Shown: in pieces, positions 16,286 to 49,936 of the stretch
Layout of the letters: each line of letters opens with the position of its first letter
How positions within the stretch are numbered: position 1 is the stretch's first letter
Assembly (NCBI GenBank): GCA_020444065.1
Contig: JAHLLQ010000003.1
Span: 382,979-446,978, forward strand
Reading direction: 5' to 3'
DNA length: 64,000 nt
Source of the DNA: a bacterium
Lineage (GTDB): Bacteria > Sumerlaeota > Sumerlaeia > SLMS01 > JAHLLQ01
Position numbers and translations under genes: made by a program
The notes under the pieces: model-generated
Database searches by the model: none
What the model was told of the DNA's origin: nothing
Seen by the model: only the letters and a program-made list of their open reading frames with translations

Positions 16286-16579
16286 CTCATTTAATTGGAC
16301 TTCCTGTCCGCCCTGCCAGCGCTGCACTTCCCGGCTTTCAAACAACCTGTGAACTCCGGCTTTTTCCGACGAGACAGCGCGATGCTGATCCGTGGCGCGA
16401 TGTCTCGCGGTCCCTCTTTTGATCGGCCCAGGTTCTTGCTCCGTTCTGTCTTGACTTAGATAAGGACCGGGGCAAGAGTCTATACAATCAAGATAAACAT
16501 GGTCTTATATGTCGTGTTTGTTTCTTGGTCGAGCCCCCGGGGGGCACTTTTCGATACCTTGATGGGTTGGGAGGGGGCC

Positions 16580-19500
16580 ATGTTGAGTCTGAAACATATT
16601 TCACTAATTTCATTCGCCTTAGCCTGTTTTGCGAGTGCCCCTGCGCTTCCCCTGCAGGCCCGGCGCGATGCCAAGGTGCCGCCCGACTTCCATCCCGGCA
16701 TGAGCGCTGGCGACCGCCAGTTCCTCTGGGGTTCGGGTCGCGCCGTGTATCCTGATCGGCGCCAGGCACTCCCAGCCAGCCAGATCAACAGCACCTACTT
16801 GCCCAGCATTGTCAGCCAGCGCGAAGCGCCCGTCTGCTACTACATGGCGATGGGCTACTACATTCGCACCTACCAGGAAGCCCGCGAACACGGCTGGGTC
16901 AGACCGGACCCGGAAACCGATCCGGACAAGGTGATCGATGGATTCTTCCTGGCTCATTTCGACTACCTGATTCCTTTCATCCGTACTTTCGGGGCGCCGA
17001 CTTATGCGGCCTCGGATTACGATGAAGCCGCCCAATTCCCGACGCCGGAGTGTTTCGCCGAGGCGCAACTCCATCGTATTGACAGGGTCTGGTATCCCGA
17101 GTTCGCCGGCACGGCGGATGTGATGCCCTTCGTGCGCCAGCAAATTGCCGATGGCGATGTGCTCTATGCGGAGATCGAGGCGCGCCAGAATTTCGACAAC
17201 TACGATGGGGAGACTGGCGATGGTTTCGACAATGGCGTCTTCTATGAATACGCCGGCGTGAGCAATCGCGGTCCGCACGCCATTACGATTGTCGGTTACG
17301 ATGACGACCGACCCTACAATGATAGCGGCACCGCCAAGACAGGCGCCGTCCTCGCCGTCAATTCCTGGGGAAGTTGGGGATGGACGCTGCCAGGTTTCGA
17401 CGACACGAGCGGAGGGTTCATCTGGATCGGTTACGACTTCTTTATCGACTTCGTTTCCGACTCGCTTCTCGTGGTCGAAGACCGCCCCTCCGATCCGTGT
17501 TTGGATTACGCCGTCATCGACTACACGCACGAGAATGCTGACGAACTAATCATGTCGGTCGAAATCGGCGACACGGATATCGGCCCTGACGAGGAGTACG
17601 GCCTGTCGTTGGATCAGGCCTTCGGCCGCCGCCCCGTCAACGGCATTGTACGCGTTCCGATCGATCGCCTGACAGCGCGCGGCGCCGAGACGTTCCGCCT
17701 GACCGGTGTGGACTTGAACCTGCCGCTGATCTACGGGCCCGGCGTGCGCCTTGGGACGATTCGGTCCTTTTCCATCGAGCGGGCAGGCATCGGCACCTGG
17801 ACCAGCGAGGACACGCCGATCTTCACGACGGACTGGAATGCACTGAACCCAGCCGACATGCCGGAACACATTTACGCGCTGGAGATTGGACTCTTCGGGG
17901 AGCGCGAAACAACCAAGCTGGACATTCATCCCGCTGTTCTCGGGACGGGGGATTGTGTGACGGACGTTGGCGACTTCGATAGGGACGGAGACCTGGACAT
18001 CATCGCCCAGTACCCCAACTCGGGCAGCACCTACGCCTTTGGCATTTTCCGCAATCGGGGCGACGGCCGCATGGAGTGGTACGAATCCAACCTGCCCACG
18101 GGGCACGTGACTCTCGCGGATGTGGCCGACTTCAACAACGACGGCTTCCTCGACGTGCTGCTTGGGATCGATGATGCGTTTGGCATCTTCTATCGCGAAC
18201 CGGCCTTCGCCGAGTTCAGCGACAGCGGCTTGCGCTTTCCCGTAGAAGACGATCACCTCGTCGCGCGCGCTGTCGACTGGAACCACGATGGGAACATCGA
18301 TGTCGCTGTGTCGGCACGCATTGAGTACGCCGTTCCCCTTCCCGACAACACGCCGTGGAGTTTCTGGTGGAACAACGGCGACGGGACATTCACCGAATCG
18401 TCGTGGCAGATCGGCGGCGATTACAACCAGCGGCCATTCATGGAATTCGCCGATATGGATCGCGATGGTTGGGAAGACATGGTGATCGCCGTGTCGACCC
18501 CGGGGCGCGTTGATTACGGAATCTACGTCTATTCGTTCGTGGATGAAAATACATTCCCGAACAACATCGCGACCATCTCCGGACTCCACAACGACATTGC
18601 CGGCGTTCAGGTTGCCGATACCAATGGCGACGGTTGGCTGGATGTCATCATCAAGACGTACACAGGAACTCACCGGATCTTCTTGAACGATCCTGGGCTG
18701 AACTTCAGCGAAACCACCAGTAATCTTCAAGACCTCAAGACGCTCGCCTTTGGCGATGTGGATAACGACGGCGTGCCCGATGTGGCCGCCACCGGGAAGT
18801 TCCAGGACGCCGATCACGTCGGCTTGTACCGCAATACGGGAACCCAGGACTACAGCTACCTCACCGGCCTCGATATTGTTCCCTATGTAACAGGAGAAAA
18901 CGACGATCTGGAATCCCCGGATGTCGAGTTGGCGGACTTCGACTCCGATGGGGACTTGGATTTTGTTGCCTTTGGCAAGTATGCCCGTTCTGGCGCTCAG
19001 TGGGACGAGGCCTATATCGGGTTGCATTACTTCGAAAACCACACGGCCGAGCCTTTGCGCTTCAACCGCCCCAACACGCCGCCGACTCGGCCAGAACTCG
19101 CAGTGCGATCTTTCAATTCCGCAACCGGCGAGCTAACAATCGAATGGCCGCAGCCCAGTGACGATATCTCCAATGTCGAGGAACTCGCTTATCGCTATTC
19201 CGTCGGCACTCTTCCCGACTGGGCGAATCTATCCACAGATGCGTTTACGCGCAGCCAGCCGCTCGAGATGCACCCGCTGCCCAATGGCGGAATCTGCACG
19301 GCGACGATTCAGGTGCCAACAAGTCGAGCCTCTTTTGTCCGCGTGCAGGCCCTCGACGATGGCCTGGCCGCCTCGGAATGGAGCGCGCCGCTTTCGGTTT
19401 ATCCACCCAACGCGGCGTATCCCTACGATGTGAATCGCGACCAGTTTGTCGACTCTGCGGACGGCGTGTCCATGGCACTGCTGTCGACTTCCGGCAATCC

Positions 19501-21745
19501 CGACGACATTGCACGCGCGGACCTGAACGCCGATGGCGTGGTTGATGGAGGCGATCGCCTGCTTCTGAATCGCGAGATCACCGGCGCGACGGCTCCCGAT
19601 CCCAATCTGCTGGGAACACTGGACGTCACGCCGGACGATGGCGGCCTACTGGTGACCGAGCAGTTCTCGATCTCCGTCCCCAGCCACACCTTCGATGTTC
19701 CCGTCAGCGTCGATGTCTATCCCGGCCAGGAAGATCCGGCGGTCACCGGTCTCGTACCCGGCTCCGTCGTCGAGCTCAGCGGGATCCCCGACTCTCGCAA
19801 CGGCAGCTACCAGATTATGTTGCCTGTCGGTGCAAACAACCCCGACGAAACCGTCCTGGTTTACGGCCGCGAAACGCTCCCCACTTCAATCTGGGAGCCG
19901 ACACTCAGCTGGCGCATGATCCGTCCGACCTCAATCGATGGTGGGATGTTCGTCTTCGACATTCCGCCCTTCCAGCCCCTTGCTGATCGAAGCCACCGGC
20001 GGAACTCCATCGAAGTGGTCGACGCGTGGTTCGGACTGGCGGATGAGGTTTACCAGATCGAGCGCGAACACTTCATCGTGCAATTCGACTCCTCCATTCC
20101 CACTGCTAGTGTTCTCGAAATGATCACCGCGATGGAGTGGACATGGAATGAACTGACAACGACTTACGGACTGAAGAGTTCCGGCATCTCCGGTAAGGTT
20201 CAGGTTCAATTCCGCGATATCGACGAAGCGGGATTCTACTGTCCGATTCTCGACTACATCGCAATCAACCAGACCAACGTGAACAGCCTCACTCCGCCAA
20301 ACCAGTACAACCAGACAACACTGACGGGCGTCCACGAATTGACCCACCGCTTCACCCGCCAATACTACCGCGCCACCGCCGGTTTGCTGGACTATCGATA
20401 CGATACGGAGTGGCCCGACGAAGCGGCAGCCGTCTGGATGGAATGCCAGTATAACAGCGACTCCGCCGATGGCGCCCGCACCGTGATGGACGAGTCGATG
20501 ATGGTCCCGTTCGAGATCGGCCTGAACGCGGGTCTCGATGGCAAGGAAGCCTACTTCGGCTACGGCATGGCGCCGCTGATGAAGTACTTTGTCGGCACAC
20601 GAGGAAAGACCGATTTCCCCGAGAAGCTGTGGCGATTCATCAGCCTCGACTACAAGACGCTCGATGCGATCAACGCCGCGGCGGCGCAACAGGCTGAGAT
20701 CTGGTGGCACGACTATGTCGGCGGACTTCTGCTCGGAAATCTCTACCCGATCCGGCCCCAAGTGCTCACGAACGGGCTGAAAAAGCGCGAGTTCAATACC
20801 GTCAACATGGGCCCGAGCGAGATCACCGAAGGCCCCGCCGTGCGCTTCGAAGTACCCGAGGTCAAGTACCTGACATCGCCACTTTTCAGTACGCTAATCA
20901 ATGATCTGTTCCTCGATACGGACATGACAATCAGCCATTGCCTGACCGCGCGGATCGGTTATGATGTCGAGTGCTCGACCTTTGCCTATCACCCCAGCAT
21001 CAACAGCGGCGATCCGGATGTTGAACACATCAGCGACCTCGTGGCGATGAATGGCGCCTACAAGCTCGATGTCCCTGTCAGAGCGGAGTGGCTAGCGAAC
21101 TCCGACTGGCGCGTGATGAACGTCGCATCGATGCTGACGGATCCCCAGGGCGCTTCCAATCCGATGTTCATGCACATTGGAATCACTCAGGACAGAAAGT
21201 GGGATGGCCCCAGCGGCCTGACTGTCGAGAACGGCGGCACGTATCAGATCGGTCTGAGTGAAGGCCTCGCGCCAAGCTACAATGTCACTTACTCGGTCGA
21301 TGGCCCGGGACTCGCGCGCATCCGCACGCTTGATTACGGCACGATTGGCAAGGATTTCCTAGCCTGGCTGCTTGGCCAGACGCCGGCCGAATTCGACATC
21401 GAATTCCAGGCCACGCCAGTCAACCTGAGCCGCATTGAATCCACGGACACCGGTTACAAGGTCCACACGGCGGGCGCGATCAAGACCTACCGCTATCGAA
21501 TTTCTTCAACGCAAGTGGATGGTTCCAATACAGACATCGTGGAAGAGCGAAGCGACGGGCGCTTGAACTACATCGTTGAGCCAAACGATGAAATCGTCAG
21601 CATGTCGGTCGAAGTCGTTTACGACATCACGGAGCAAATCTACGACGACAACGACAATCTGCTGGACACGATCGTGCATACCGACGTGTGGACACGCCTG
21701 TCGGGCGTCACCCTGTTCGCCTATCCATTTGTTCTGGAGGATTGA
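16580..21745 (+). CDS. Secreted multidomain protein: papain-like peptidase, FG-GAP repeats, dockerin, HExxH metallopeptidase-like domain
   Basis: 1,721 residues from the ATG at 16580, next to GGGAGGGGG; a signal peptide covers about 1-24. Residues 70-300 form a C1-like cysteine peptidase: Cys86 in VCYYMAMGYY, His233 in GPHAITIVGYDDD and Asn261 in AVNSWGSWGW. Residues about 460-810 hold seven FG-GAP/VCBS calcium motifs (DFDRDGDLDI, DFNNDGFLDV, DVDNDGVPDV and others), expected to form a beta-propeller. A fibronectin-like segment (about 840-945) follows. A type I dockerin-like pair comes next (YDVNRDQFVDSADG, ADLNADGVVDGGD; about 953-1005). A second catalytic region has HELTH at 1252-1256 with WPDEAAAVWM downstream, a gluzincin-type zinc site. 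The C-terminus is beta-rich. Two unrelated peptidase folds in one secreted chain are unusual. Substrate unknown. Confidence 0.8.
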   Translation: MLSLKHISLISFALACFASAPALPLQARRDAKVPPDFHPGMSAGDRQFLWGSGRAVYPDRRQALPASQINSTYLPSIVSQREAPVCYYMAMGYYIRTYQEAREHGWVRPDPETDPDKVIDGFFLAHFDYLIPFIRTFGAPTYAASDYDEAAQFPTPECFAEAQLHRIDRVWYPEFAGTADVMPFVRQQIADGDVLYAEIEARQNFDNYDGETGDGFDNGVFYEYAGVSNRGPHAITIVGYDDDRPYNDSGTAKTGAVLAVNSWGSWGWTLPGFDDTSGGFIWIGYDFFIDFVSDSLLVVEDRPSDPCLDYAVIDYTHENADELIMSVEIGDTDIGPDEEYGLSLDQAFGRRPVNGIVRVPIDRLTARGAETFRLTGVDLNLPLIYGPGVRLGTIRSFSIERAGIGTWTSEDTPIFTTDWNALNPADMPEHIYALEIGLFGERETTKLDIHPAVLGTGDCVTDVGDFDRDGDLDIIAQYPNSGSTYAFGIFRNRGDGRMEWYESNLPTGHVTLADVADFNNDGFLDVLLGIDDAFGIFYREPAFAEFSDSGLRFPVEDDHLVARAVDWNHDGNIDVAVSARIEYAVPLPDNTPWSFWWNNGDGTFTESSWQIGGDYNQRPFMEFADMDRDGWEDMVIAVSTPGRVDYGIYVYSFVDENTFPNNIATISGLHNDIAGVQVADTNGDGWLDVIIKTYTGTHRIFLNDPGLNFSETTSNLQDLKTLAFGDVDNDGVPDVAATGKFQDADHVGLYRNTGTQDYSYLTGLDIVPYVTGENDDLESPDVELADFDSDGDLDFVAFGKYARSGAQWDEAYIGLHYFENHTAEPLRFNRPNTPPTRPELAVRSFNSATGELTIEWPQPSDDISNVEELAYRYSVGTLPDWANLSTDAFTRSQPLEMHPLPNGGICTATIQVPTSRASFVRVQALDDGLAASEWSAPLSVYPPNAAYPYDVNRDQFVDSADGVSMALLSTSGNPDDIARADLNADGVVDGGDRLLLNREITGATAPDPNLLGTLDVTPDDGGLLVTEQFSISVPSHTFDVPVSVDVYPGQEDPAVTGLVPGSVVELSGIPDSRNGSYQIMLPVGANNPDETVLVYGRETLPTSIWEPTLSWRMIRPTSIDGGMFVFDIPPFQPLADRSHRRNSIEVVDAWFGLADEVYQIEREHFIVQFDSSIPTASVLEMITAMEWTWNELTTTYGLKSSGISGKVQVQFRDIDEAGFYCPILDYIAINQTNVNSLTPPNQYNQTTLTGVHELTHRFTRQYYRATAGLLDYRYDTEWPDEAAAVWMECQYNSDSADGARTVMDESMMVPFEIGLNAGLDGKEAYFGYGMAPLMKYFVGTRGKTDFPEKLWRFISLDYKTLDAINAAAAQQAEIWWHDYVGGLLLGNLYPIRPQVLTNGLKKREFNTVNMGPSEITEGPAVRFEVPEVKYLTSPLFSTLINDLFLDTDMTISHCLTARIGYDVECSTFAYHPSINSGDPDVEHISDLVAMNGAYKLDVPVRAEWLANSDWRVMNVASMLTDPQGASNPMFMHIGITQDRKWDGPSGLTVENGGTYQIGLSEGLAPSYNVTYSVDGPGLARIRTLDYGTIGKDFLAWLLGQTPAEFDIEFQATPVNLSRIESTDTGYKVHTAGAIKTYRYRISSTQVDGSNTDIVEERSDGRLNYIVEPNDEIVSMSVEVVYDITEQIYDDNDNLLDTIVHTDVWTRLSGVTLFAYPFVLED

Positions 21746-28668: not shown

Positions 28669-31600
28669 ATGTTCTCGAGGAGATATCTCACCCGTTCGGT
28701 TTTGATGCTCTGCCTGGTAATGATGCCGTTGGCAGTGTTTGCGGACGCCGTGATCAAGACACGGGTGGTCGACAACGTGGTCCTCGAAACCGGGAAGGAA
28801 TTCGAAGTCGAGGTCTTTGTCGAGTCGAACACGGGCAATCCGCCAACGGTGTTTGCCTTGCGAGTCAACTACAACAGCGACGCCCTGGAGTGGGTTTCCG
28901 CCACCCAGGGGACTATGGGCGGCCTGATTCTCGGACCCGAGTCGGGCACTGCGCCCGATCTGTATCGCAACGTGCGCGGCATTGGATTCGCCAATACGGA
29001 TCCAACTCCGACGCTGATGCGTGTGAAATTCCGCGCGCTTCAAGCTCCCAATCCACCAGCTATTATCACGGTGATGGACGATTCATCGACTCCGCTGAAC
29101 TTCGCGGATATCAGTAACGCGCCCATCCCGCATACTTTTGACAATTCGTTGACGTCCAGCCTTCCGATCGAGATTTCCGGCTCGGCAACCGTTGCAACGG
29201 AACTCAGCGCTCCGGGCGGCCTCGTGGCCGGCGGACAGTTCGATGTGAAGTTGCTCGTCAACGACAACACGACGCTGCTGGCGCCCGGCTCCGCGGATAT
29301 TCGCGTGACCTGGAACCCGCAGTCGATCCAGTTGCTTTCCGTCAGTGGCGCTGACCTCGGCGCAGTCACGAGCGATACGCTCATGATGCCGAGTCCCAGT
29401 CAGGCTTATCGCAACTTCTCCGCAAGCAATCCAGGAAACCTGGATGCGACACCGGAGTTGATGACGTTGCACTTCCAGGTTCTGGGCTCGCCGTTTGTGC
29501 CATTCTCGATTTCCGCTTCTGCCAACGCGGCAGGCGGGAATCCGCTGGTCAGCACAGGCAGCGACGACATCCCGACGAACTTCGACAACGCACAGACGAC
29601 CGCGCTGAGCATTACCGGCGCGGGCGCTGCGCTGATTCGGACTTCGTTGGCGACGGCTCCGCCGCTTCGCATCGGGGCGGAGTTTGAAGTCTCAGTCGAC
29701 ATCGAGTCCAATGCTTCGGCGCAGATTCCCGGGCGTTCTGCCATACGTCTTGTTTATTCAAGCGACTCGGTGGAGTTCCTGGGCGTTCGCGATGGCGACC
29801 TTGGTGCAGTTGCGGCTGCTCCTCCCGTCAGCCTCGGCGGTGGCGAAATGGCCGTCGACCTCGTGACAGGCGGCAATCCCGGCAATGCGGATGCGACGCC
29901 GCAGATTCTGATGGCGCGCTTCCTGGTGAAGTCGAATCCCTTCCAACCGTTCAGCATCAGCGCTGGTGACAATCCAACTGCGGCCGATCCGTTGGTTGCG
30001 GTCGACCAGACAACGCCGATCAGCCGGAATTACGATTCCTCCTTCACCGGCAGTCTGACTGCGAACGACGTGGGGTTGGCGATGATTGCGACAGGCCTGC
30101 AGAGTGGCGATCCACTGGCGGCCGGCGAAACGCTTTCCATTCCCATCGACGTTGCCAGCAATTCGACTGGCATGGCCCCCGGATCGGCGAACCTGATCGT
30201 GAGTTACGATCCGACGAAGCTCACGTACTTGAACAGCGACAGCGGCGATCTTGGGAAGGTCACGACCACATCGACTCGCAAGGTTCCCGTCGATGGCAAG
30301 GTTTACGTCGAAACGGATGGTAACGATGCCAACACCGACGAGACGCCGAATATCATCCTGATGCGTTTCGAGACGGCGACGCCTTTGCAGGCGCCGTACA
30401 CCATCTCGGTTTCCGGCAATCCGGACGGCGCACCTGCGCTGACCGAAGCGGGCACCGGGAATGGTATTCCACGCGCATACAATTCCAATGCGACAACGAA
30501 CCTCGGAGTCAATCCGACCACCGGAACGGCGATGATCAAAACACAGATCGTTTCGGGCGATACGACGACGCCGGGCGGAACATTCGACGTGCGTGTGTAC
30601 GTCGATTCAAACACGACCGGCATCACGCCGATCGAGGCGGCTCTCGAGGCGGTGTACGACACGTCTTCGGTGAGCCTGCTTAGTGCCACGGCGGGCGATC
30701 TTGGCAATCCGATCGTCGGCGTCACAACCAACATTGGTGGGACGAAGGTCCGTCACCCCATCGCGACCGATGTGAATGCGGGGAACCTCTCGCAGACCCC
30801 GGACGTGTTCACCCTGACATTCGAAGTCCTCAACAACGCGTACTCTCCGTTCTCGATCGAGATGCGCGATGCCACCGGTTCGACGTCTGCACTTGTCGGC
30901 GCCGGCATCGAGGACATTCCAACCCTCTACGATAATTCTGCGACGATCGATTTGCCCGGTCCTCCGACCGGCGGTGCGGTTGTGCAAACCAGCGTTCTTT
31001 CCGGCGATCCGAATGTTGCCGGCGGAACGTTCGACGTAGGCGTTCGCGTTGTCTCGAACGGCTCCGGTGAAATCCCCGTCTCGGCAGCCTTCCGGATCGA
31101 ATACGATGTGGATAGCGTCGAGTTCGTGGGTGCCGCGGCCGGCGACCTCGGTGGGCTGGAAATTGGCCCCGAAGAAGTCGACGGTTCGGACAACTTCCGC
31201 GACATCCTCACGCAAGGCAACGGTGGCAACGCCTCGTTGTTGCCGAACGTGATGACGTTGCGCTTCCGCGTGAAGAACGCACCGTACGCTCCTTATTCGA
31301 TCCATGTCGGATCGGATCCGGATTCCACTGCGCCATTGCTCTCGACCGATCTGTCGACGAGCATTCCGGTGACCTACGACAACGCGCTGACCACCGACTT
31401 CCCAGGACCGCCGTTGCTCGGCAATGCCGTCATCCAGACAACGATTGCTTCCGGCGATCCGACACTGGAAGGCACCGAGTTCGACGTGCTGGTTCACGTC
31501 GCCTCGAATCCCGCGGGCCAGATCCCGATCGCCGCTGCATTCCGGCTTCGCTACAACCTCGATTCCGTCGAGTTCGTCAGCGCATCCGGTGGCGACCTTG

Positions 31601-34038
31601 GCGGCGTCATCGTGGGCGGCGAGGAAGTCATCGGCGGCGGCTTTGTGCAGCGCGATGTTCTGACCGATGGTTCCGGCGGCAACACGATGCTGCTCCCGGA
31701 CGTCATGACGCTGAAGTTCCGAGTGTTGAACCCGGCCGTTTCTCCCTACTCGATTCTGGTGAGCGACGATCCGGCTTCGACTGCGCCGTTGCTTGACGAT
31801 GGGCTTGGCGTGAACATCGACCACGTCTTCGACAACGATGCGACCACCGGCATTCTGACTTCCGGTCAGGCCGGCCAGGCTGTCGTTCGCACCTCGATTC
31901 TCTCCGGCGATCCATCACAACCGGACACCGAGTTCGACGTGCTGGTCGAAGTCTCCGACAATCCGACAACCATGACGCCGCTGGCGGCTGCATTCCGCGT
32001 TCGTTACGATCCGGAAAGCGTCCAGTTTGTTGGCGCGCTGGCGGGCGATCTCGGAGCACTGACCGTTGCCAACGAAGAAGTCGACGGTGGCGACGTCGTG
32101 CGCGATATCAGCACGCAAAGCAACGCCAGCAACACGAACCAGACACTGTCCGTCTTTGTGCTGCGTTTCCGTACAGAGACGTTCCCGCTGTCGCCGTTCT
32201 CGATCCAGATGAGCGACGACCCGGATTCGACGGGACCGCTTCTGGCGCAGGACTTCACCACAAACATTCCGCACCAGTTCGATAACAGTGCGACAATGAA
32301 CCTGATCGCCCAGGCGACCGGCGAAGTGCTTATTCGCTCGTCCGTCCAGAGCGGCGATCCGAACGTCATCGGCGGTAACTTCACGGTTCTCGTCGAGGTG
32401 GCTTCCAACGAAACCGGACTCATCCCGGAATCCTCTGCGTTCCGCATGATCTACGACACCGCGTCGGTCACGTACCTTGGCATCGGTGGCGGAGAACTGG
32501 GCGGCGCGTTGGCCGGCAATGAGGAGACGATCCTCGGGACCACCGTCTTCCGCGATGTTGTGACGGACGGCAGTGCGACGGCGCATGTGATCGCGCCGGA
32601 TGTCTTCACGGCAACTTTCCAGGTGAACGCCGCGCCGATTGCGCCGTTCACGATCCTCTTCCAGGATGATCCGGACAGTTCGCTGCCACTTTTGGCCAGC
32701 GATCTGCAGACCAACATCCCGCACACGTTCGATAACGCCGGTACGACGGATCTCGGCCAGGGCCTGCCCACGCCGACTCCATCTCCAACACCGACGCCGA
32801 CCCCGACGGACACGCCGACGTCTACTCCGACGCCGACACCAAGCCCGACGGATATTCCGACGTCGACACCGACTCCAACACCGACACCGACGATAACGCC
32901 GACGTTCACGCCGACGTTCACGCCGACGCTAACGCCGACCCCGACACCGACGGGCACGCCGGTTGTCTTCACCTTCGCGAATCACCGTCAGGGATGGGAT
33001 CCCTATTCATGGCCGCCGTTCACATCGCCGGTCTTCGACAACACGCCGGGTACGCCTGGTACGTTGGATATGACGATGACTACCAACACGAACCTGGTAG
33101 GCATCTGGGAATCCCCAGCCTTCGAGATCGTCGGAACCGACGCCGTACCTGTCCGCACCGACACGATTCCATTACGTGTCAGCGCCGACGGGACGTTGCC
33201 GATCTTTGCGACGACCTATCGTATCATGACGGATGAGACGGATCTGACGCTCGTTCCGCAGGTTCGTGTCCGCACGACCGCGCAGAACAGCCAACAGGCG
33301 GAAGTCCTGACGATCGAGTCCAACGCCGACGCGGCTTACTCGCCGACACCGGCCGGGGTCGAGTACACGCTCTTCTTCCGTCCGCCGACGGTCAGCCCGA
33401 TCTTCACTCTTGAGTGGGACGTGCTGAACTTCTATCCGTTGGATTCGGCATCGGCCCAACTGATGCTGGACAACGTTGTGATCGAGCAGGTTCCGGAAAC
33501 CATTCTGGATGGTGCGACCTCCGAATTCGCCTATGACTTCGAAGGCAATCAGGATGGCTGGGACTTCTTCTCGATTCCGGAGAGCTTCCCCGCGCCGGGC
33601 TTCGCTTACGACTCGGCGAATGGCCGCCTTGGACTTAGTGTCGCCGACACGTCCGAGTTCCAGTTCGGCTTCTGGGGATCGTCGTTGGATCCGAACAATA
33701 ACCCGACGATCCAGGCGGGTCGTCTCTACTACGCCCTCTTCACTGTGGGGACGGACATCGCGATTGCCGATCAGGTGCCGGAATATCGCCTGCGCCTGAA
33801 CGAATCGCTGTTCCGTGTTTCGCAGTACACCAACGTTGCCTCGACCGGATCGGCAATGAATGTCCCGGCGCCTGGCGCTCCGCGTCAGCACCTGGTCTTC
33901 TTCCCGGCGAACATGGGTGTGGGCCAGAATCTGCTGTCGTCCTTCGACATTCTGGCCAATCCGGCGAGTGACAACCTCGAGATCGGCGGTTCGATTTACC
34001 TGGAAAGCCTGGAGATCTTCTCCGTCCCGGCTCCGTAA
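28669..34038 (+). CDS. Scaffoldin-like protein with nine cohesin-like repeats, Thr-Pro linker and two C-terminal beta-sandwich modules
   Basis: 1,789 residues. AGGAG lies five bases before the ATG; signal peptide about 1-25. Nine modules of about 148 residues begin near 28748, 29179, 29624, 30069, 30521, 30970, 31422, 31877 and 32320. Each opens with AV(I/V)xTxxxSGDP, then FDVxVxVxSN, YDxxSVxFxxAxxGDLG and a closing IPxxFDNxxT. The pattern is that of cohesins, the dockerin-binding modules of cellulosome scaffoldins. A TP-rich linker (residues about 1367-1431; [16 protein letters not shown]) resembles scaffoldin linkers. Two C-terminal modules ([26 protein letters not shown]) look like carbohydrate-binding-type jelly rolls. 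No SLH, sortase or PEP-CTERM anchor is seen. A dockerin-like protein gene lies just upstream. Confidence 0.7.
32769..32959 (+). repeat. Thr-Pro linker microrepeat
   Basis: Tandem ccgac/acaccgac hexamer-type repetition encoding TPTP..TSTP..TFTP. It creates a spurious Gly-Val ORF on the opposite strand. Such repeats can change length by slippage, varying the linker. Confidence 0.85.
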
Positions 34039-34190: not shown

Positions 34191-35222
34191 ATGTATCGTT
34201 CAATCATCGCAGGTCTGTTTCTTTCGGTGGCGTTTCTCGTCGCCTGCGGTGGGGGAGAGAAGGAAGCCGCTGCACAGGAGGTCGTGGTCTACACGGCGCT
34301 CGATCGCGAGTTCTCCGAGCCGATCCTGAAGCAATTCACCGAAGAAACCGGAATCGTCGTCAAACCCGTGTACGACACGGAAGCCGTCAAGACGACGGGC
34401 CTTGTGAATCGGCTGATCGCCGAGAAGGCCCGTCCGACGTGCGACGTGTTCTGGAACAACGAGATTGTGCGTTCGATTCAACTGAAACGCGAAGGTGTGA
34501 CCGAGGCCTATCGTTCTCCGAGCGCCGAGAAGATCCCGCCCGAACTGAAGGACCCAGAGGGACACTGGACGGGATTTGCGACACGCGCTCGGGTGATTTG
34601 CGCGAATACGGAACTGCTGCCCACTGAAGCCGATCGCCCGCAGAATGTCTCCGACCTGATCCGCAAGCAGTGGCAAGGCAAGGCAGCCTTTGCCAAGCCG
34701 CTGTTTGGCACGACGGCCACACACGCCGCCGTCATCTGGGCCGAGCAGGGCGAGGAGGTCTTCCGTGCCTTTTGGAGTACCGCCATGGAGAATGCCGTTA
34801 TGGTGGCCGGCAACGCCCAGGCTCGCGATGCGGCCGCCGATGGCGAATTGCCCTGGTGTCTGACCGATACGGATGACGCCTACGGCGCGCTGCTGGACGG
34901 GAAGCCTGTGGAGATCATTTATCCAGACGACGGGGCCAACGAGGAAGGCATCATTTTGATTCCGAACACGGTCGTCCTGATCAAGAATGCCCCGCACCCG
35001 GAAGCTGCCCGGGCGCTGATCGACTACCTGCTGTCGCCGGAGGTGGAGGCGAAGCTGGCCCAGTCCCGAAGCGCCCAGATCCCCGTCCGGGACGGAATCG
35101 CGCCCCCCGAGGGGCTGAAATCCCTTGAGGGCCGGCACATCCGCGATATCGACTGGGAAGCGGTCGCGGACGCACTGGAGCCTTCCCAGGCGGCGCTGGC
35201 CGAGATGCTTGCCAACCAGTAG
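34191..35222 (+). CDS. Iron(III)-type ABC transporter substrate-binding lipoprotein
   Basis: 343 residues with an AAAAGGGA ribosome site. The lipobox LVAC at residues 16-19 shows it is lipidated. EVVVYTALDREFSEPILKQF, TGIVVKPVYDTEA and DVFWNNEIVRSIQLKREG match the FbpA/FutA-like family 1 solute-binding proteins that deliver ferric iron (some bind other oxyanions or sugars). No permease or ATPase gene is adjacent; the flanks are cohesin-like genes, so it is an orphan here. The metal-ligand tyrosines cannot be assigned with certainty. Confidence 0.8.
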   Translation: MYRSIIAGLFLSVAFLVACGGGEKEAAAQEVVVYTALDREFSEPILKQFTEETGIVVKPVYDTEAVKTTGLVNRLIAEKARPTCDVFWNNEIVRSIQLKREGVTEAYRSPSAEKIPPELKDPEGHWTGFATRARVICANTELLPTEADRPQNVSDLIRKQWQGKAAFAKPLFGTTATHAAVIWAEQGEEVFRAFWSTAMENAVMVAGNAQARDAAADGELPWCLTDTDDAYGALLDGKPVEIIYPDDGANEEGIILIPNTVVLIKNAPHPEAARALIDYLLSPEVEAKLAQSRSAQIPVRDGIAPPEGLKSLEGRHIRDIDWEAVADALEPSQAALAEMLANQ

Positions 35223-35286
35223 CGCCAATCCCGGCGGGCTCTCGGCGGGTCCCTTTTCTGGGCCCACTGCTGACCGGAGGAAGACG

Positions 35287-36648
35287 ATGACGATGAAACA
35301 CGCTCGAATCTGGATTCTCATGCTGGTGGCCGCCTGCGCGCTGACCGCCGGGCCCGCGCTCGCGCAGAAGCAGCCGACCGGCGGTGCGCAAAGAGAGCCC
35401 GTTCAGAAGCAGCCCCAGCAGACGAACAACCGGCAGCAGAGCTCCGGGGCATCGAACACGAACAACAGGCGCCCCAGCAGGCAGCCCCGCACCGGCAGCG
35501 GAGCGCGTCCCGAGGCAGGCGGAAGAACGGGAAGCTCAACCGGCCGTTCTGGCGCGTCCAGCGCAAGCTCTCTCGGCGGCGTTCAGATGGTCAGCAATCC
35601 GGATAATCTCATTCTCCGCCTGACGGCCGCAAATGCGGAAGGCTTCGAGGATGTCGATGCCGTGGAGGGCGGTACCTTCGGGACGGATATCCGGCTGGAC
35701 AATCCGCGTGGCAAGCCCGTCGATTCGATGCGCCTGATTGTCGATTACAACCCGGCATTCATCAGCCCGAAGTCCATCAACGATACACCCCTGAAGGAAT
35801 TCCTGGATGGCGCGCCGAAGGCCACGGTGAATCGCAGCCTGGGGCAGATCTACTACGAGGCGAATTTCAAAGAGCCAATCCCGCCATCGGACGAGCCCAT
35901 TATGTACCTGCGGTGGGAGGCGAAGACTCCGGTCGTCTACACCGCGATTGAATTCGGCAAGAATCGCGAGATCGGCGTCACCGATCTCACGTACCAGAAT
36001 GAATCCGTCCTGGGCGAACCGCACGAGGAAGGCGACGGTACGGTCTCGGTGGGCGTTCGTGTGATTCCGGCGGACCCGGACGAGGCGGCGCTGATGCAGG
36101 AAGAGCCGCAGCTCTACCTTGGCAGTGACGAGCGCGTCGGTGGCGTCCAGATCGCCATCCAGCCGCCGATCGAGACGCCTCAGGTCGGCCAGATCTTCAC
36201 GATGGATATCGTGCTCGACAACAGCACCTACTCCCAGATCGACGGCATCTCGTTCCTCATCCAGTACGATCCGACGACTATCGAAATCCTTGATGCGGAC
36301 CAGGACAACTGGATCACGCTCGGACCGAACATCCTTGATGGGCCGTTCCACGGGGATTTCCCGTTCGACTACCACATGGCAAACACCTTCTACCAGGTTC
36401 GCGGTTTGATCGAGTACCGTGTCGGGACGTCGACGCCAGACGACCTGCTTGGCATCGATGCGCCGATTGCGCGGATCGTGGCCCGCGGTCTAAAGCCCTC
36501 GGCCGGGACTGCCGTGCAGTTCAGCTTCTCCAAGCGCCGCGGCACGCGCACCACCGAGGTCGTTTATATGGGCCAGGACGTTCTGGGCGATCCGGACATC
36601 AGCAACGACGGCGCACGTGGAGCCTTCTTCCGTGTTCTCCCCGAATAA
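35287..36648 (+). CDS. Secreted protein with two cohesin-like domains
   Basis: 453 residues from the ATG at 35287, six bases after GGAGG; signal peptide about 1-27 (ends PALAQ). A low-complexity Gln/Ser/Arg/Gly region (28-98) is followed by domain 1 (about 105-265: GGTFGTDIRLDNPRG, MRLIVDYNPAFISPKSIN) and domain 2 (about 280-450: GQIFTMDIVLDNSTYSQIDG, FLIQYDPTTIEILDADQ). Both have the cohesin-type strand order and the YDP-type strand. They are diverged from the nine-repeat protein. The earlier in-frame start at 35125 lies inside the upstream coding region and is rejected. Probably part of the same secreted protein set. Confidence 0.65.
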   Translation: MTMKHARIWILMLVAACALTAGPALAQKQPTGGAQREPVQKQPQQTNNRQQSSGASNTNNRRPSRQPRTGSGARPEAGGRTGSSTGRSGASSASSLGGVQMVSNPDNLILRLTAANAEGFEDVDAVEGGTFGTDIRLDNPRGKPVDSMRLIVDYNPAFISPKSINDTPLKEFLDGAPKATVNRSLGQIYYEANFKEPIPPSDEPIMYLRWEAKTPVVYTAIEFGKNREIGVTDLTYQNESVLGEPHEEGDGTVSVGVRVIPADPDEAALMQEEPQLYLGSDERVGGVQIAIQPPIETPQVGQIFTMDIVLDNSTYSQIDGISFLIQYDPTTIEILDADQDNWITLGPNILDGPFHGDFPFDYHMANTFYQVRGLIEYRVGTSTPDDLLGIDAPIARIVARGLKPSAGTAVQFSFSKRRGTRTTEVVYMGQDVLGDPDISNDGARGAFFRVLPE

Positions 36649-45187: not shown

Positions 45188-48109
45188 CTACCGCGACGTC
45201 GCGGCGCGATAGGTTTCCAGGGAGATGGCCTCCAGGCGGGCGCCGCCATTGGGGTCCGCCTGGCCGTCGAAGCCCATCAGATCGAATGTGATCGTTAACT
45301 CCTCGGCCTCCATCTCATCCGACAGGGTCAGGAAGGCCGTGGGCGAGATTCGGCCCGGGGGAGCGGAACGCCAGATACTGCAATTTGTTGCACGGTTGTC
45401 CTTCTCGGTGATGCGCAGCCGCAACGCGGGCGCAAGGCCGTCGGCAAACCGTTCAATTCGGGCGCCCACGGCCCACAATGGGCGATCCGGCACGGCACTG
45501 GGCTCCAGCAGTGGGCTGGTCCAGGAGCCGTAGACGTCACCCGAGGAGCCGGGTTGCTGCAAAACCAGCCCGTCGGCCGCAGCGGCCGCCTCCGCTGGCC
45601 TGAAGGCGACGTCCGAGGCCGGCTGCCACCCGTGGGTCTGTCCGGCGAACTCCAGGTGCATTGTCGAGTTCGATCGATACAGATCATCCAACCAGCCGAG
45701 GTTCTCCACTTTCAGATTCTGCACGCGGATCGTTGCGCCTTCCTGGCTCCCGAGCCCCAGAAGATCGAATCCGAACGTCCATTCCTGGACGTCGGCCTCG
45801 GCCAGCAGATACTGCTGGTATTGCCGCCCCCACGGATTCGGAGATTCAAGCGCATCCGGCTGTGCGTCGATTTGTAGCAGGTCCGTCCGCGCGAATGCAT
45901 CGCGATGTATCATCAGGCGGAAGCTCGGCCACTTTCCGGCGGCATCTTCCTCGGCCGCCACCGTCCAGGAAACGCGCAACAATGTCCCTTTCGGAACAGC
46001 CACCGTGCGCGCCGGCGAGACAAAGCCGCCGTATTGCCCCGGGGCGGTGAGCTGCACCTGAAGGGCACCGAACTCGTCCTTGAAGCCCGCGGCGGGAAAC
46101 GCCGGGTTCGTCACACGAGACCATCCCGACGGGCCGCCGCTAAAATCCTCGGACGCCACGACGGTTGCCAGAACCGGTTCATTCCGGCAGCCATCCAGAT
46201 AGCCCGTCACCTCCGGGCACGGGTCGATCACGTCGGGAAACCCGTCCTCGTCGATGTCCGTCGCCGCCGGCAGATCCTCGCCGTAGGCAGCCGTCCGATT
46301 CACCGCCGCCATGGACCGTACCGTCTCGCCGTCCGGATTCAGGACGGGCCCTTCGATCTCGACCGGCGTATTGAAGAGCCACTCGGGGTTGAAGCGCTCG
46401 GCGCCGACGTCGCGCCCGGCGACCTGGAAGCCATCCTCCTCGATTTCCCCATCGCCGTCCACATCGAAGGGCAACTCCTCGGTCTGGTACAACACCAGGC
46501 TGTTCAGGAACGTCACCAGGGCCTCGCGGTCGGCTTCGGAAGCCTTGGCGTAGGCTTCCGCCGCGGCGGCTGCTTCGCCGCCGTGTCGGCGAATGACGGC
46601 ATCCAGATCGAGGCTCGCGCCATCGTGGCCGTAAGGCGCGCCATGTCCGACGCCCCACAGCGGAGGCGTGCGGAAGTGGCGCTGGATCGATCCGTCGAAG
46701 TTCAACTCGGCGAAGCCGTCGCCCATCTCGTGATGGCGGAAGTCGGAGTACACGCCAGTGAAGGTCGCCGCGCCCCGCCGAGGAACTCGCAACCCATCCT
46801 CGATCTGTGACAGGTCTTTGACCTGGGCCTCCAGGCGCCCTGCAGCCTCGTTCCAGGCGGCGCGCAGCTCGAACAGCCGGCGATCGCCCTCGAATCGGCC
46901 ATAGACGTCTGTGCTGGTCGGGTTGGCCGGCTCGATCCGCCAGTCTGGGACGTGACAGGTCGTGCAGCCGAAGCTGTCCATCAGCACCCGGCCGCGGGAG
47001 GTGCGCTCCGTCGGAGGCCGCTGAGCGGGGATCGCCGCGTGGAGTAGGTAGAACTCCAGCAGATCCATCTCGCCCTGCGAGAACTCCTCCAGCACGCCGT
47101 CGCCGTCGGGATCGTCTGCGCTGATGCCCAGGATCGTGCGCGTCACGCCGGCATCCGGCGACGGCTCGACAGAGAACTGCCGCGCTCCATTGACCGAAAT
47201 GCTGGCAACTCCGTCCCTATCCGGGTCGTCTGCGGCAACGCCGTCGTGGGCATCCAACCCGATGTGCGTGTGCATAGCGTTTCGGGCAAAGCCGCGCACC
47301 GTGGAGGACACAGCGCCCTCGCGGTGGCCCCAGCCGAAGATCTGCATTGTGAAGTTATAGCCGGCCACTTCCGGATCGTCGAGGCTCTCCGCGTCGGGCA
47401 GCATGTGCCCGTCGGAATCCACGTACCAGAGGCGGAGCACAGTGTTCAGGTCCGGATGGCCGTCGTGATCGGCGTCCTCATTCTTGCCGAAGGAGAGCGG
47501 CGATTCGCCCGGCGCGGGCTCGACGACCAGTTCAGCTCCGGTCATCTCCTTCAGCGAGATCCACCCATCGCGATCGGTATCGGCCTGGCCCATCAACTTC
47601 ATGCGCGTCTGCAGGCCGATCATCTCGATGGCGCCCGCGCCAAACGCGCTCAGGGTCTGTCGCCCGCGTCCGCTGTTCTTGGGAATGGTCACGCCGGGTC
47701 CGGGTTCGCGCGGCACGTTCGTGTGACACGCGGCGCAACTGGTCACGTCGGCGAGCGGAAGCATTTTCGTGCGTTCGTCGCCGAGTGGCCCGCCGATGAA
47801 GTCGCCGCCGTGGCCGGTCGCGCCGTCGCGTACCCGCCACTGGCGCTGGAACAAGTCACGGCCGCGCTGGAAGGCCAGCCACGGATCGCGCCGGATGAAC
47901 CAACCCGACGTCCCGGGCTCGCGCGCGTCGAAGCTCGACCGAATGCGAATGCGGCGGCTCTTGATGGAAAGGCCGCTCAAGTCCTTCGCCCGGCGATCCG
48001 ACCAGCCCTCGGTGGACGTGCCGGGGCGCTCCGACAATTGCGCCGATGCCGGCCCGACCAGGGCCAGCAACACAACGATCCGGAACGCGAGGACGAGTCG
48101 ATTCCTCAT
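45188..48109 (-). CDS. Secreted di-haem oxidoreductase (DUF1111-like) with calcium repeats and C-terminal beta modules
   Basis: 973 residues from the ATG at 48109 with GAGGGTGGG upstream; signal peptide about 1-24 (GPASAQ). Two haem c motifs are present, CAACH (about residue 120) and CTTCH (about residue 390). YSDFRHHEMGDGFAE and RTPPLWGVGHGAPYGHDGAS match the C-terminal part of di-haem peroxidase-like (DHOR) proteins. Calcium-type loops DTDRDGWISLKEM, DADHDGHPDL, DPDRDGV and DVDGDGEIEEDG are spread between the haem sites. The last 300 residues form two beta-rich modules (FSGGPSGWSRVTN; FAGQTHGWQPASD) resembling the C-terminal modules of the scaffoldin-like protein. It is probably periplasmic or extracellular electron transfer; the substrate is unknown. 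Confidence 0.8.
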   Translation of the reverse strand: MRNRLVLAFRIVVLLALVGPASAQLSERPGTSTEGWSDRRAKDLSGLSIKSRRIRIRSSFDAREPGTSGWFIRRDPWLAFQRGRDLFQRQWRVRDGATGHGGDFIGGPLGDERTKMLPLADVTSCAACHTNVPREPGPGVTIPKNSGRGRQTLSAFGAGAIEMIGLQTRMKLMGQADTDRDGWISLKEMTGAELVVEPAPGESPLSFGKNEDADHDGHPDLNTVLRLWYVDSDGHMLPDAESLDDPEVAGYNFTMQIFGWGHREGAVSSTVRGFARNAMHTHIGLDAHDGVAADDPDRDGVASISVNGARQFSVEPSPDAGVTRTILGISADDPDGDGVLEEFSQGEMDLLEFYLLHAAIPAQRPPTERTSRGRVLMDSFGCTTCHVPDWRIEPANPTSTDVYGRFEGDRRLFELRAAWNEAAGRLEAQVKDLSQIEDGLRVPRRGAATFTGVYSDFRHHEMGDGFAELNFDGSIQRHFRTPPLWGVGHGAPYGHDGASLDLDAVIRRHGGEAAAAAEAYAKASEADREALVTFLNSLVLYQTEELPFDVDGDGEIEEDGFQVAGRDVGAERFNPEWLFNTPVEIEGPVLNPDGETVRSMAAVNRTAAYGEDLPAATDIDEDGFPDVIDPCPEVTGYLDGCRNEPVLATVVASEDFSGGPSGWSRVTNPAFPAAGFKDEFGALQVQLTAPGQYGGFVSPARTVAVPKGTLLRVSWTVAAEEDAAGKWPSFRLMIHRDAFARTDLLQIDAQPDALESPNPWGRQYQQYLLAEADVQEWTFGFDLLGLGSQEGATIRVQNLKVENLGWLDDLYRSNSTMHLEFAGQTHGWQPASDVAFRPAEAAAAADGLVLQQPGSSGDVYGSWTSPLLEPSAVPDRPLWAVGARIERFADGLAPALRLRITEKDNRATNCSIWRSAPPGRISPTAFLTLSDEMEAEELTITFDLMGFDGQADPNGGARLEAISLETYRAATSR

Positions 48110-48156: not shown

Positions 48157-48250
48157 GCGATGTGTCGCGCCGTTGGCGCTCGGTGTTCTTGCGCCCGTTA
48201 CCTGGGGTTGGCACCCCAGGCTGGTATGCGGCGCGCCCTCGGCGCTTGCG
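48157..48250 (-). repeat. REP-like repeat, inverted orientation (B1)
   Basis: Contains CGCGCCgttGGCGCTCGGTG, CCTGGGGttggcaCCCCAGG and CTGGTATGCGGCGCGCC. It is the reverse-complement relative of the A-type copies, sharing GCATACCAGCCTGG. Confidence 0.75.
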
Positions 48251-48363
48251 TAAGATCTGAGGACAGGTGGGTAGCGAGGGGTTGAAAGGTTGGCGAAGAC
48301 TCGACACACCCACCTGTGCCGAGGGGATGGGCGGTGCACATCAAGCGCTCGCCCTTCTCCAAT

Positions 48364-48460
48364 GGAGCGCCATCGGCGCGGAGCATACCAGCCTGGCGCG
48401 TTTAGCGCCAGGTACCGTGAGCGCAAGAGGTCGAGGGCTGAAGGCCCGACCGATCGAATC
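48364..48460 (+). repeat. REP-like repeat (A1)
   Basis: Three stems in order: GCGCCatcGGCGC, CCTGGCGCgtttaGCGCCAGG and GGGCTgaaGGCCC. It is virtually identical to the next copy, 101 bases away. Confidence 0.85.
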
Positions 48461-48464
48461 TGAA

Positions 48465-48561
48465 GGAGCGCCATCGGCGCGGAGCATACCAGCCTGGCGC
48501 GTTTAGCGCCAGGTACCGTGAGCGCAAGAGGTCGAGGGCTGAAGGCCCGACCGATCGAATC
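48465..48561 (+). repeat. REP-like repeat (A2)
   Basis: Tandem duplicate of A1 over the full 97 bases, indicating recent copying. Confidence 0.85.
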
Positions 48562-48576
48562 GCAACCAATCCGTCG

Positions 48577-48670
48577 ATGCGTCGCGCCTTTAGCGCTCGG
48601 TGTTTTGGCGCCCGTTACCTGGGGTTGGCACCCCAGGCTGGCATACGGCGCGCCCTCGGCGCTTTGCGTG
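48577..48670 (-). repeat. REP-like repeat, inverted orientation (B2)
   Basis: Same arrangement as B1, with CGCGCCtttAGCGC and CCTGGGGttggcaCCCCAGG stems. With A2 it forms a large inverted pair. Confidence 0.75.
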
Positions 48671-48865
48671 GGCAGAGACGATGCGTGGTTGGGGAGTGAA
48701 CCAAACGTCACCGGAAGCTCCCATGAGTAGATGATCGCTTGGGAGCTATTCCAAGGAGCGAGTACGATGCGCCTTTGGCGCTTGCGTGGGTAAGAGCGGT
48801 TGCTGAGCGGAGGAATTCCGAAGTTCAGGGCCGCGTCTCTCAAGGGGCCCCTCGGTATCGCTGAA

Positions 48866-48958
48866 GGAGCGCCATCGGCGCGGAGCATACCAGCCTGGCG
48901 CGCTTAGCGCCAGGTACCGTGAGCGCAAGAGTTCGAGGGCTGAAGGCCCGACCGATCG
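48866..48958 (+). repeat. REP-like repeat (A3)
   Basis: A-type copy with single-base changes (gcgcttagcgc loop). Confidence 0.85.
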
Positions 48959-49045
48959 TTGAGAGATCATCCCGCGTCTCTTGGGCCACCCGATTGGGCG
49001 ATTGACACTTTCTCACAAGCCATTCGACCTTGGTTGGTGAAAACA

Positions 49046-49132
49046 CCATCTGCGCAGAAATTGCCAGCCTGGCGCGCTTGGCACCAGGTACCATGAACAT
49101 AGGAGTTGGAGGGCTGAAGGCCCGACCCGTCG
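49046..49132 (+). repeat. REP-like repeat (A4), adjoining the transposase start
   Basis: More diverged A-type copy ending two bases before the transposase ATG. In IS200-like and REP-associated transposons the left-end hairpin lies at this place. Confidence 0.7.
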
Positions 49133-49134
49133 CG

Positions 49135-49587
49135 ATGCCTCAATCATTGAGTTTGATCCTGATTCACGTGATCTTCAGTACAAAGGATCGTCGCCCTTTC
49201 ATCGATCACGCGAACCGCCAGGCCCTCCACGCATACATGGCAACTATCGCGCGAAACGAGGGGGCCGAGTGTTATCGCATCGGCGGAGTTGAAGATCATG
49301 TTCATCTGGCGATTCGTCTCCCCCGAACAATGGCAGTGGCCGACTTGATTCGGCAGATCAAGGCCAGTTCATCGAGTTGGATGAAGGAGCAGTCAAAGGA
49401 TCTCGCAGTCTTTGCGTGGCAGCGGGGGTATGCGTGCTTCTCAATCAGCCCGCAGTATCGGCAAGAGCTCCTTGAGTACATCGATAATCAGGAAGAGCAT
49501 CACAGGTCGCGAACCTTTCAGGAGGAGCTTCGGGTGTTCCTCAGTAAGTACGAGGTCGATTATGATGAGGCCTACGTCTGGGATTAG
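49135..49587 (+). CDS. IS200/IS605-like HUH Y1 transposase (REP-associated type)
   Basis: 150 residues from the ATG at 49135; longer frames run into the repeat. The HUH metal-binding motif is His55-Val-His57 in GVEDHVHLAIRLP. The nucleophile is probably Tyr115 in LEYIDNQEEHH. HVIFSTKDRRPFI, FAWQRGYACFSISPQYRQ and the terminal DYDEAYVWD are typical of the full-length single-strand transposase family, so the gene looks intact. No TnpB lies next to it. Repeat copies of opposite orientation sit at once upstream (49046-49132) and 12 bases downstream (49600-49690). Such genes are known to copy or maintain REP sequences in other bacteria. It is likely the driver of the repeat cluster. Confidence 0.9.
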   Translation: MPQSLSLILIHVIFSTKDRRPFIDHANRQALHAYMATIARNEGAECYRIGGVEDHVHLAIRLPRTMAVADLIRQIKASSSSWMKEQSKDLAVFAWQRGYACFSISPQYRQELLEYIDNQEEHHRSRTFQEELRVFLSKYEVDYDEAYVWD

Positions 49588-49599
49588 GGAGTGTGCGAT

Positions 49600-49690
49600 G
49601 GACCGCGCTTTCAGCGCTCGGTGTTTTGGCGCCCGTTACCTGGGGTTGGCACCCCAGGCTGGTATGCGGCGCGCCGTTGGCGCTTGTGTG
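49600..49690 (-). repeat. REP-like repeat, inverted orientation (B3), adjoining the transposase stop
   Basis: B-type copy with CGCGCTttcAGCGC and CCTGGGGttggcaCCCCAGG stems, beginning 12 bases after the transposase stop. Confidence 0.8.
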
Positions 49691-49845
49691 TAGAGGCGAT
49701 GCGTGGTTGGTGAGAAGGCCAAAGGGTAGCGAAGGCCCTCGTATGCAGATGAGCGCTCTTGAGAACACCCTCGGGGTGAATGTGGTGATCCTCGGCGCAC
49801 GCGCAGGTGAGAGTCTGGGTGATTGGACGTCTGGCGCCCCCGACG

Positions 49846-49936
49846 AAGCGCCATCGGCGCGGAGTATACCAGCCTGGCGCGCTTAGCGCCAGGTACCGTG
49901 AGCACAGGAGTCGGAGGGCTGAAGGCCCGACGGATC
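49846..49936 (+). repeat. REP-like repeat (A5)
   Basis: A-type copy with the same three stems, ending with GGGCTgaaGGCCC about 120 bases before the regulator gene. Confidence 0.8.

Follow-up and report, generated by a model that had tools for sequence, protein, structure and literature searches.

Anchoring scaffoldins, as described in the available excerpt of PMC11557425, combine cohesins with a wall-binding domain. In Fibrobacter, according to the available portion of PMC6851124, a basic domain forms the terminal module of many secreted proteins; its work was once unexplained, and a role as a type IX secretion signal was subsequently proposed for it. Here we describe a two-module unit, which we call the A-B pair, in a 64,000-nucleotide stretch of DNA (the window) from a bacterium of the phylum Sumerlaeota, where it ends both a scaffoldin-like cohesin protein and a di-haem enzyme of the DHOR type. 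The modules of these two proteins are homologous and recur, paired and regularly spaced, mostly at the C-terminus of otherwise unrelated proteins, in a single phylum as far as our searches went, while homologues of the enzyme in another phylum end before them. Our literature search on Sumerlaeota, on cohesin and dockerin, on type IX and SLH anchoring, on DHOR and on Fibrobacter found no such pair, which may still be in print; the available part of PMC8092238 mentions no dockerin or cohesin.

The two carriers in the window and their modules are as follows.

45188..48109, minus strand: predicted exported di-haem (DHOR-type) enzyme with a C-terminal A-B cassette, 973 amino acids from an ATG start (PF06537, 61.2 bits against a cut-off of 22)
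45707..46147, minus strand: its terminal module A, residues 655-801 (75.0 bits, profile excluding the di-haem protein)
45218..45655, minus strand: its terminal module B, residues 819-964 (50.2 bits, profile excluding the di-haem protein)
28669..34038, plus strand: cohesin (scaffoldin-like) protein ending in the A-B cassette (PF00963, E 6.5e-15; modules by profile)
32968..33483, plus strand: module A of the cohesin protein (module profile)
33532..34017, plus strand: module B of the cohesin protein (module profile)

An earlier note on this DNA had proposed, from a shared GW-containing opening, that the terminal modules of the enzyme also occur at the end of the scaffoldin-like protein. We compared all 272 reading frames of the window (E <= 10) with a non-circular profile, built from 68 module pairs with the di-haem protein excluded. 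Matches were convincing in two proteins, the cohesin protein (153 and 138 bits) and the di-haem protein (E 3.2e-22 and 1.4e-14 for its modules A and B), and 200 shuffles gave none. The two GW modules of the di-haem protein and those of the cohesin protein are homologues, and the earlier proposal was borne out.

The earlier note had also suggested a profile search of the genome for other carriers. Starting from the two modules of the di-haem protein, an iterated profile recovered 49 modules in 25 proteins encoded by the window and by 18 stretches retrieved from the same genome. These 25 carriers were examined together with 48 from relatives, sampled as 40 regions of 16 genomes picked around well-scoring matches. 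A genome-wide module search gives 56 places; some of these are weak or partial and fall in roughly five more frames, outside the set of 25. Each module spans about 150 residues, and an A-B pair about 310-350. Alignment of 47 modules from this genome showed four invariant columns (G, P, R and D) and a near-invariant tryptophan at two places, near the start of the module and in an FGxW motif. The modules are acidic, with median isoelectric points (pI) of 4.2 and 4.3 and none of 68 above 9.

Pairing of the modules is the rule. Exactly two modules are present in 24 of the 25 carriers from this genome, the 25th having a degenerate first module, and in 47 of the 48 from relatives, whose set includes one frame that runs off its contig and one that stops early inside module B. 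Not one of the 73 carriers holds more than one pair. The linker between the modules is 16 residues long in 21 of 24 pairs of this genome, 17 in two (the di-haem protein among them) and 46 in one; in relatives the gap measures 13-18 residues in 41 of 47. Position is similarly constrained: no more than 15 residues lie between the last module and the C-terminus in 47/48 carriers from relatives and 18/25 from this genome. In five of the seven exceptions 259-267 residues follow the pair; judged from the stretch displayed these are FGE-like in four, while L039, the fifth, contains two FGE stretches, one of them displayed. In the other two the pair stands soon after the N-terminus, ahead of FGE-like or FG-GAP parts.

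First and second modules separate almost cleanly in a module tree (2 changes, against a mean of 16.4 when shuffled), the deepest forks of which are weakly supported. We read this as one old duplication, after which the pair would have spread as a unit. The pair of the di-haem protein is among the most diverged: its two modules meet in the tree on long branches, and each scores higher with the A model than with the B model (70.2 against 59.4 bits, and 50.1 against 39.2 bits). It is either an early offshoot or the product of fast divergence.

The proteins that carry the pair are diverse. In this genome their other domains are FGE-like in nine, FG-GAP in three, and cohesin in two over the cut-off plus one weak match; HYR, WD40, subtilase, DUF5666 and DHOR occur once each, and nothing was recognised in five. 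The nine FGE-sulfatase-like carriers lie at L038, L039, L040, L042, L044, L045 and L051, several with the pair before or between the FGE-like parts. Among the 43 of 48 carriers from relatives that were scanned, matches included beta-helix (8), NosD (5), subtilase (4), BACON (4), bacterial TSP3 (4), cohesin (3) and others, drawn from the best 25 of 37 families, so that absences cannot be read from this list. A hydrophobic N-terminus was found in 22 of 25 carrier frames of this genome and in 35 of 42 from relatives; the di-haem protein counts as a miss, which we think is due to its frame having been opened 68 codons upstream of the ATG.

The earlier note took the shared module as a link to a secreted, polysaccharide-related set, which is too narrow for a unit carried by FGE-like, FG-GAP, subtilase, WD40, HYR and cohesin proteins alike. 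No dockerin is among the Pfam matches listed for the 25 carriers (for one of them, 25 of 28 families were listed), and by coordinates none of the 17 listed dockerin places, of 21 in this genome, lies inside an A-B frame. The dockerin model marks a different set of proteins in the same genome.

Two carriers on different contigs, L049 and L050, share a near-identical pair. Their last 359 residues are identical, and their N-terminal parts, T/P-rich linkers aside, are unrelated (HYR in one, a weak cohesin in the other). The underlying DNA is a near-identical cassette of 1,149 bp (L049:6056-7204 and L050:5806-6954) with 7 differences, all silent, since the encoded residues are the same. Identity fades upstream in the T/P-rich linker and downstream about 30 bases past the stop codon. 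Therefore either the piece holding the pair was recently copied or converted, or the upstream part of one of the genes was recently replaced.

At E <= 1e-5 the modules were found in 25 of 40 genomes of this phylum and in none of 346 outside it, a set in which at most nine candidates were scored per genome and Planctomycetota were not searched as such. Matching genomes hold from 1 to at least 94 modules. Some genomes are rich in modules and poor in dockerins (94 and 2 in G014, 67 and 1 in G028), and others show the reverse (5 and 19 in G013, 1 and 23 in G016, 4 and 18 in G022). Both are present in the genome of the window (55 modules and 21 dockerins), G032 (21 and 18), G034 (17 and 16) and G023 (28 and 11).

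Library searches assigned the modules to no described family. No PDB sequence matched them at E <= 10. In Pfam (E <= 0.1), six families matched one each of the 47 modules, the best at E 0.033 and none convincingly; SLH and the carbohydrate-binding module (CBM) families held in Pfam were absent from these six. Four NCBIfam families were listed at E <= 1. Among them, NF050191 (Npun_F0296_dom, an exosortase-dependent surface domain) gave weak matches in 8 of the 47 modules, with a best E of 0.0021.

The enzyme that precedes the pair in the di-haem protein exceeds the gathering cut-off of DHOR, and its main match covers profile positions 408-499 of 499, which is the second, C-terminal haem half; one Pfam scan counted two matching stretches, another a single one. 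At E <= 0.001 the genome has no other DHOR match. The earlier note had recognised a di-haem enzyme with two CxxCH sites at 45188-48109; coordinates, motifs and assignment all held. It had further counted at least four calcium-type loops. Such loops are indeed present, and the count was low: six D-x-[DN]-x-[DN]-G loops start at residues 177, 212, 295, 333, 549 and 618, whereas 2000 composition shuffles of the protein averaged 0.105 loops and never gave more than 3. The features of the enzyme part are listed below; conservation refers to 16 aligned enzymes, after removal of a short paralogue (L144) and of two sequences truncated where their locus ended.

48038..48109, minus strand: signal-peptide-like N-terminus, residues 1-24 (judged by eye from the sequence)
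47723..47737, minus strand: haem-binding site 1, CAACH, residues 125-129 (C125, C128 and H129 invariant in 16/16)
47546..47581, minus strand: canonical EF-type loop 1, residues 177-188, with D at position 1 and E at position 12 (D177 and E188 invariant in 16/16)
47441..47476, minus strand: D-x-D-x-D-G loop 2, from residue 212 (present in 4 of 15 homologues)
47192..47227, minus strand: D-x-D-x-D-G loop 3, from residue 295 (D299 in 94% of 16; first Asp variable)
47078..47113, minus strand: D-x-D-x-D-G loop 4, from residue 333 (D333, D335, D337 and E342 in 94-100% of 16)
46952..46966, minus strand: haem-binding site 2, CTTCH, residues 382-386 (C382, C385 and H386 invariant in 16/16)
46430..46465, minus strand: D-x-D-x-D-G loop 5, from residue 549 (D549, D551 and D553 in 88-100% of 16)
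46223..46258, minus strand: TSP3-like loop 6, from residue 618, near the end of the presumed ancestral enzyme (D618, D620, D622 and D626 invariant in 16/16; 15 homologues stop hereabouts)

Four further histidines, H282, H460, H495 and H509, are also invariant in all 16 sequences. These features suggest a di-haem oxidoreductase of the MauG/CCP kind, probably with peroxidase-like chemistry, whose loops would bind calcium. The Pfam cut-off for EF-hands was not reached (EF-hand_6, 15.8 and 17.8 bits against 25), and our literature search found no paper on a combination of MauG or diheme proteins with EF-hands. A PDB search with the single di-haem protein returned nothing at E <= 1; with the enzyme profile it returned one short match to cytochrome c555 (E 5.4e-6 overall, each stretch E > 6), which was not useful. 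An AlphaFold model of the enzyme part, made with the two L037 homologues introduced below (3 rows), had a mean predicted local distance difference test score (pLDDT) of 27.7 and was not used. No phage record matched the C-terminal region, and two scans of viral contigs gave no relative.

Homologues of the enzyme provide evidence that it exists without the pair. A scan of genome contigs gave a single relative locus, L037, in a metagenome-assembled genome (MAG) of Planctomycetota, with two tandem homologues that are 44-45% identical. When 392 genomes of that phylum were searched, with at most three candidates scored per genome, 34 matched at E <= 1e-20 and 13 held full-length homologues (E < 1e-190), 15 in total. 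Five of the six loops are largely kept across these 15, with variation at single residues. All 15 terminate within 12 residues past the enzyme profile, which is before the A-B modules would begin, and this points to a pair added to a ready-made enzyme. Most simply, the A-B pair would have been appended here to an enzyme that stands alone elsewhere. Among 386 genomes near that of the window (40 of its own phylum, itself included), a full-length homologue was found at E <= 1e-10 in this genome only, a rarity that would fit horizontal acquisition. Around the homologues (14 loci), one cluster of neighbours recurs in three loci, where it is FG-GAP-like by eye in one, and another in five; no neighbour is shared by all 14, and as these surroundings are hard to read, with many antisense frames, they were not used.

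The reading that we tentatively favor is that the A-B pair holds its carriers at the outer cell surface or in the extracellular matrix, in a role like that of SLH, a function that we read from the arrangement of the proteins. The analogy is drawn because A-B is the terminal part of some cohesin proteins and the carriers of this genome gave no listed dockerin match. Under this proposal the enzyme would be exported, load two haems, be stabilised by calcium and carry out MauG/CCP-like redox chemistry outside the cytoplasm, having gained a ready-made two-module cassette at its C-terminus. A-B itself would be a lineage-specific didomain that many unrelated exported proteins have received in a single copy, usually as their last part, and it would tether the di-haem enzyme, like the other carriers, to the surface or matrix as SLH repeats anchor scaffoldins.

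A bolder version, possible and in our view somewhat doubtful, makes A-B the address label of an undescribed, phylum-wide route for surface attachment or outer-surface sorting. Recombination would have carried one acidic two-module cassette to dozens of exported proteins of unrelated kinds, among them a captured di-haem enzyme and the cohesin scaffoldins, and a dedicated receptor would recognise it. If the surface role is true, a poorly studied phylum possesses a cell-surface anchor or sorting tag peculiar to itself, and one profile would be enough to pick out its surface proteins and show which proteins face outside. It would also supply the anchor for some cohesin proteins and explain the tethering of an otherwise free-standing di-haem enzyme.

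Several observations weigh against attachment as the common role. A second cohesin protein of the window, at 35125-36648, lacks the pair, so cohesin and A-B do not always go together; this also counts against the module as a mark of the polysaccharide set. The internal or N-terminal pairs of seven of the 25 carriers weaken a purely terminal role. The loci of the relatives were selected by us, and 19 of their 48 carriers come from one genome, G014. The pair of the di-haem protein is so diverged that the shared function may have been lost in it. An AlphaFold model of the A-B pair of the cohesin protein, with the pair of the di-haem protein as second row (2 rows), had a mean pLDDT of 36.6 and was not used.

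The strongest rival, which we consider unlikely, is that A-B is a carbohydrate-binding didomain directing secreted proteins to an external polysaccharide. Conserved tryptophans near the module start and in the FGxW motif would suit such a function, as would the cohesin and dockerin proteins encoded by this window. So would the P/T-rich linkers that precede the pair in 5 of 25 carriers of this genome and 16 of 48 from relatives, since such linkers are common in modular polysaccharide enzymes. Set against these are the lack of a convincing Pfam match for the 47 modules and the absence of glycoside hydrolase domains from the Pfam scans of this genome's carriers (E 0.01-0.1). Binding modules typically vary in copy number, and a single pair at a mostly fixed place would be unusual for them.

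That A-B instead directs sorting from the C-terminus, being recognised by a secretion machine of the type IX kind and then removed, seems improbable to us. The C-terminal domain of type IX substrates is not known to occupy any place but the C-terminus, a position that A-B takes in nearly all carriers from relatives and leaves in the seven exceptions of this genome. The range of unrelated carriers would be expected of such a signal, and proline is the last residue in 39 of 63 carriers with a C-terminal pair (the di-haem protein does not end in proline). The Fibrobacter domain offers a precedent, as far as the available portion of PMC6851124 describes it, but that domain is basic and A-B is acidic. 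The four NCBIfam families listed for the 47 modules do not include the Por secretion tail model (TIGR04183). A search for the SprA/Sov translocon gave no match in any of 40 genomes and is uninformative because the control genome was also silent.

Finally, a mere structural spacer or dimerisation unit is very improbable. In its favor, the 16-residue linker is fixed in most pairs of this genome and about 260 residues follow the pair in five of its proteins (FGE-like by the displayed stretch in four). Against it, most carriers end with the pair and so have no further part to be held at a distance, and the phylum-wide expansion suggests a common partner.

Two further features of the window lie near these genes. 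The first is a dockerin.

19424..19579, plus strand: dockerin in the FG-GAP protein at 16499-21745 (PF00404, 25.3 bits against a cut-off of 22.9)

No module was found in this protein with the 68-pair profile, and it is a possible partner of the cohesin. The dockerin FG-GAP protein, the cohesin protein with A-B and the one without lie within about 20 kb and form a small cohesin-dockerin set; in the relatives G008 (C29) and G010 (C64), too, a dockerin place lies near an A-B place. The second feature, directly upstream of the di-haem gene, is an IS200-like Y1 transposase gene (49030-49587, PF01797) amid 3-5 copies of repeats of about 60-97 nt (48158-49900 of the window), a layout that presumably resembles a REP/RAYT arrangement. 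The exact core motif of the repeat has 4 copies here and none in 18 other stretches of the genome.

How, then, does this locus compare with described systems? The di-haem protein resembles DHOR (PF06537) in its two CxxCH sites and in the C-terminal haem half, matched at 61 bits, and differs in its several conserved calcium-type loops and in the added A-B pair. Closest to it is the EF-loop subgroup of DHOR exemplified by L037 (15 proteins in 13 genomes), which has the same order of haem sites and largely keeps five of the six loops; unlike the window enzyme, every member is without the A-B pair. For the modules themselves, NF050191 has a similar profile length (158) and is a lead only: in the one pair, of 10, that was seen in detail, the match covered 29 residues at 15 bits against a cut-off of 29.

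In sitting at the C-terminus of numerous secreted proteins within one lineage, A-B recalls the Fibrobacter basic terminal domain, or FPm-1, as the available portion of PMC6851124 presents it. From that domain and from type IX C-terminal domains it differs in being acidic, built of two modules and sometimes internal, with no TIGR04183 match listed. Compared with SLH anchoring, A-B gives no SLH match, is acidic, was found within our searches in one phylum only, and is missing from one cohesin protein of the window; it has two modules, whereas SLH occurs as three. What A-B has in common with the SLH anchors of scaffoldins is that one unit is carried both by cohesin proteins and by other exported proteins.

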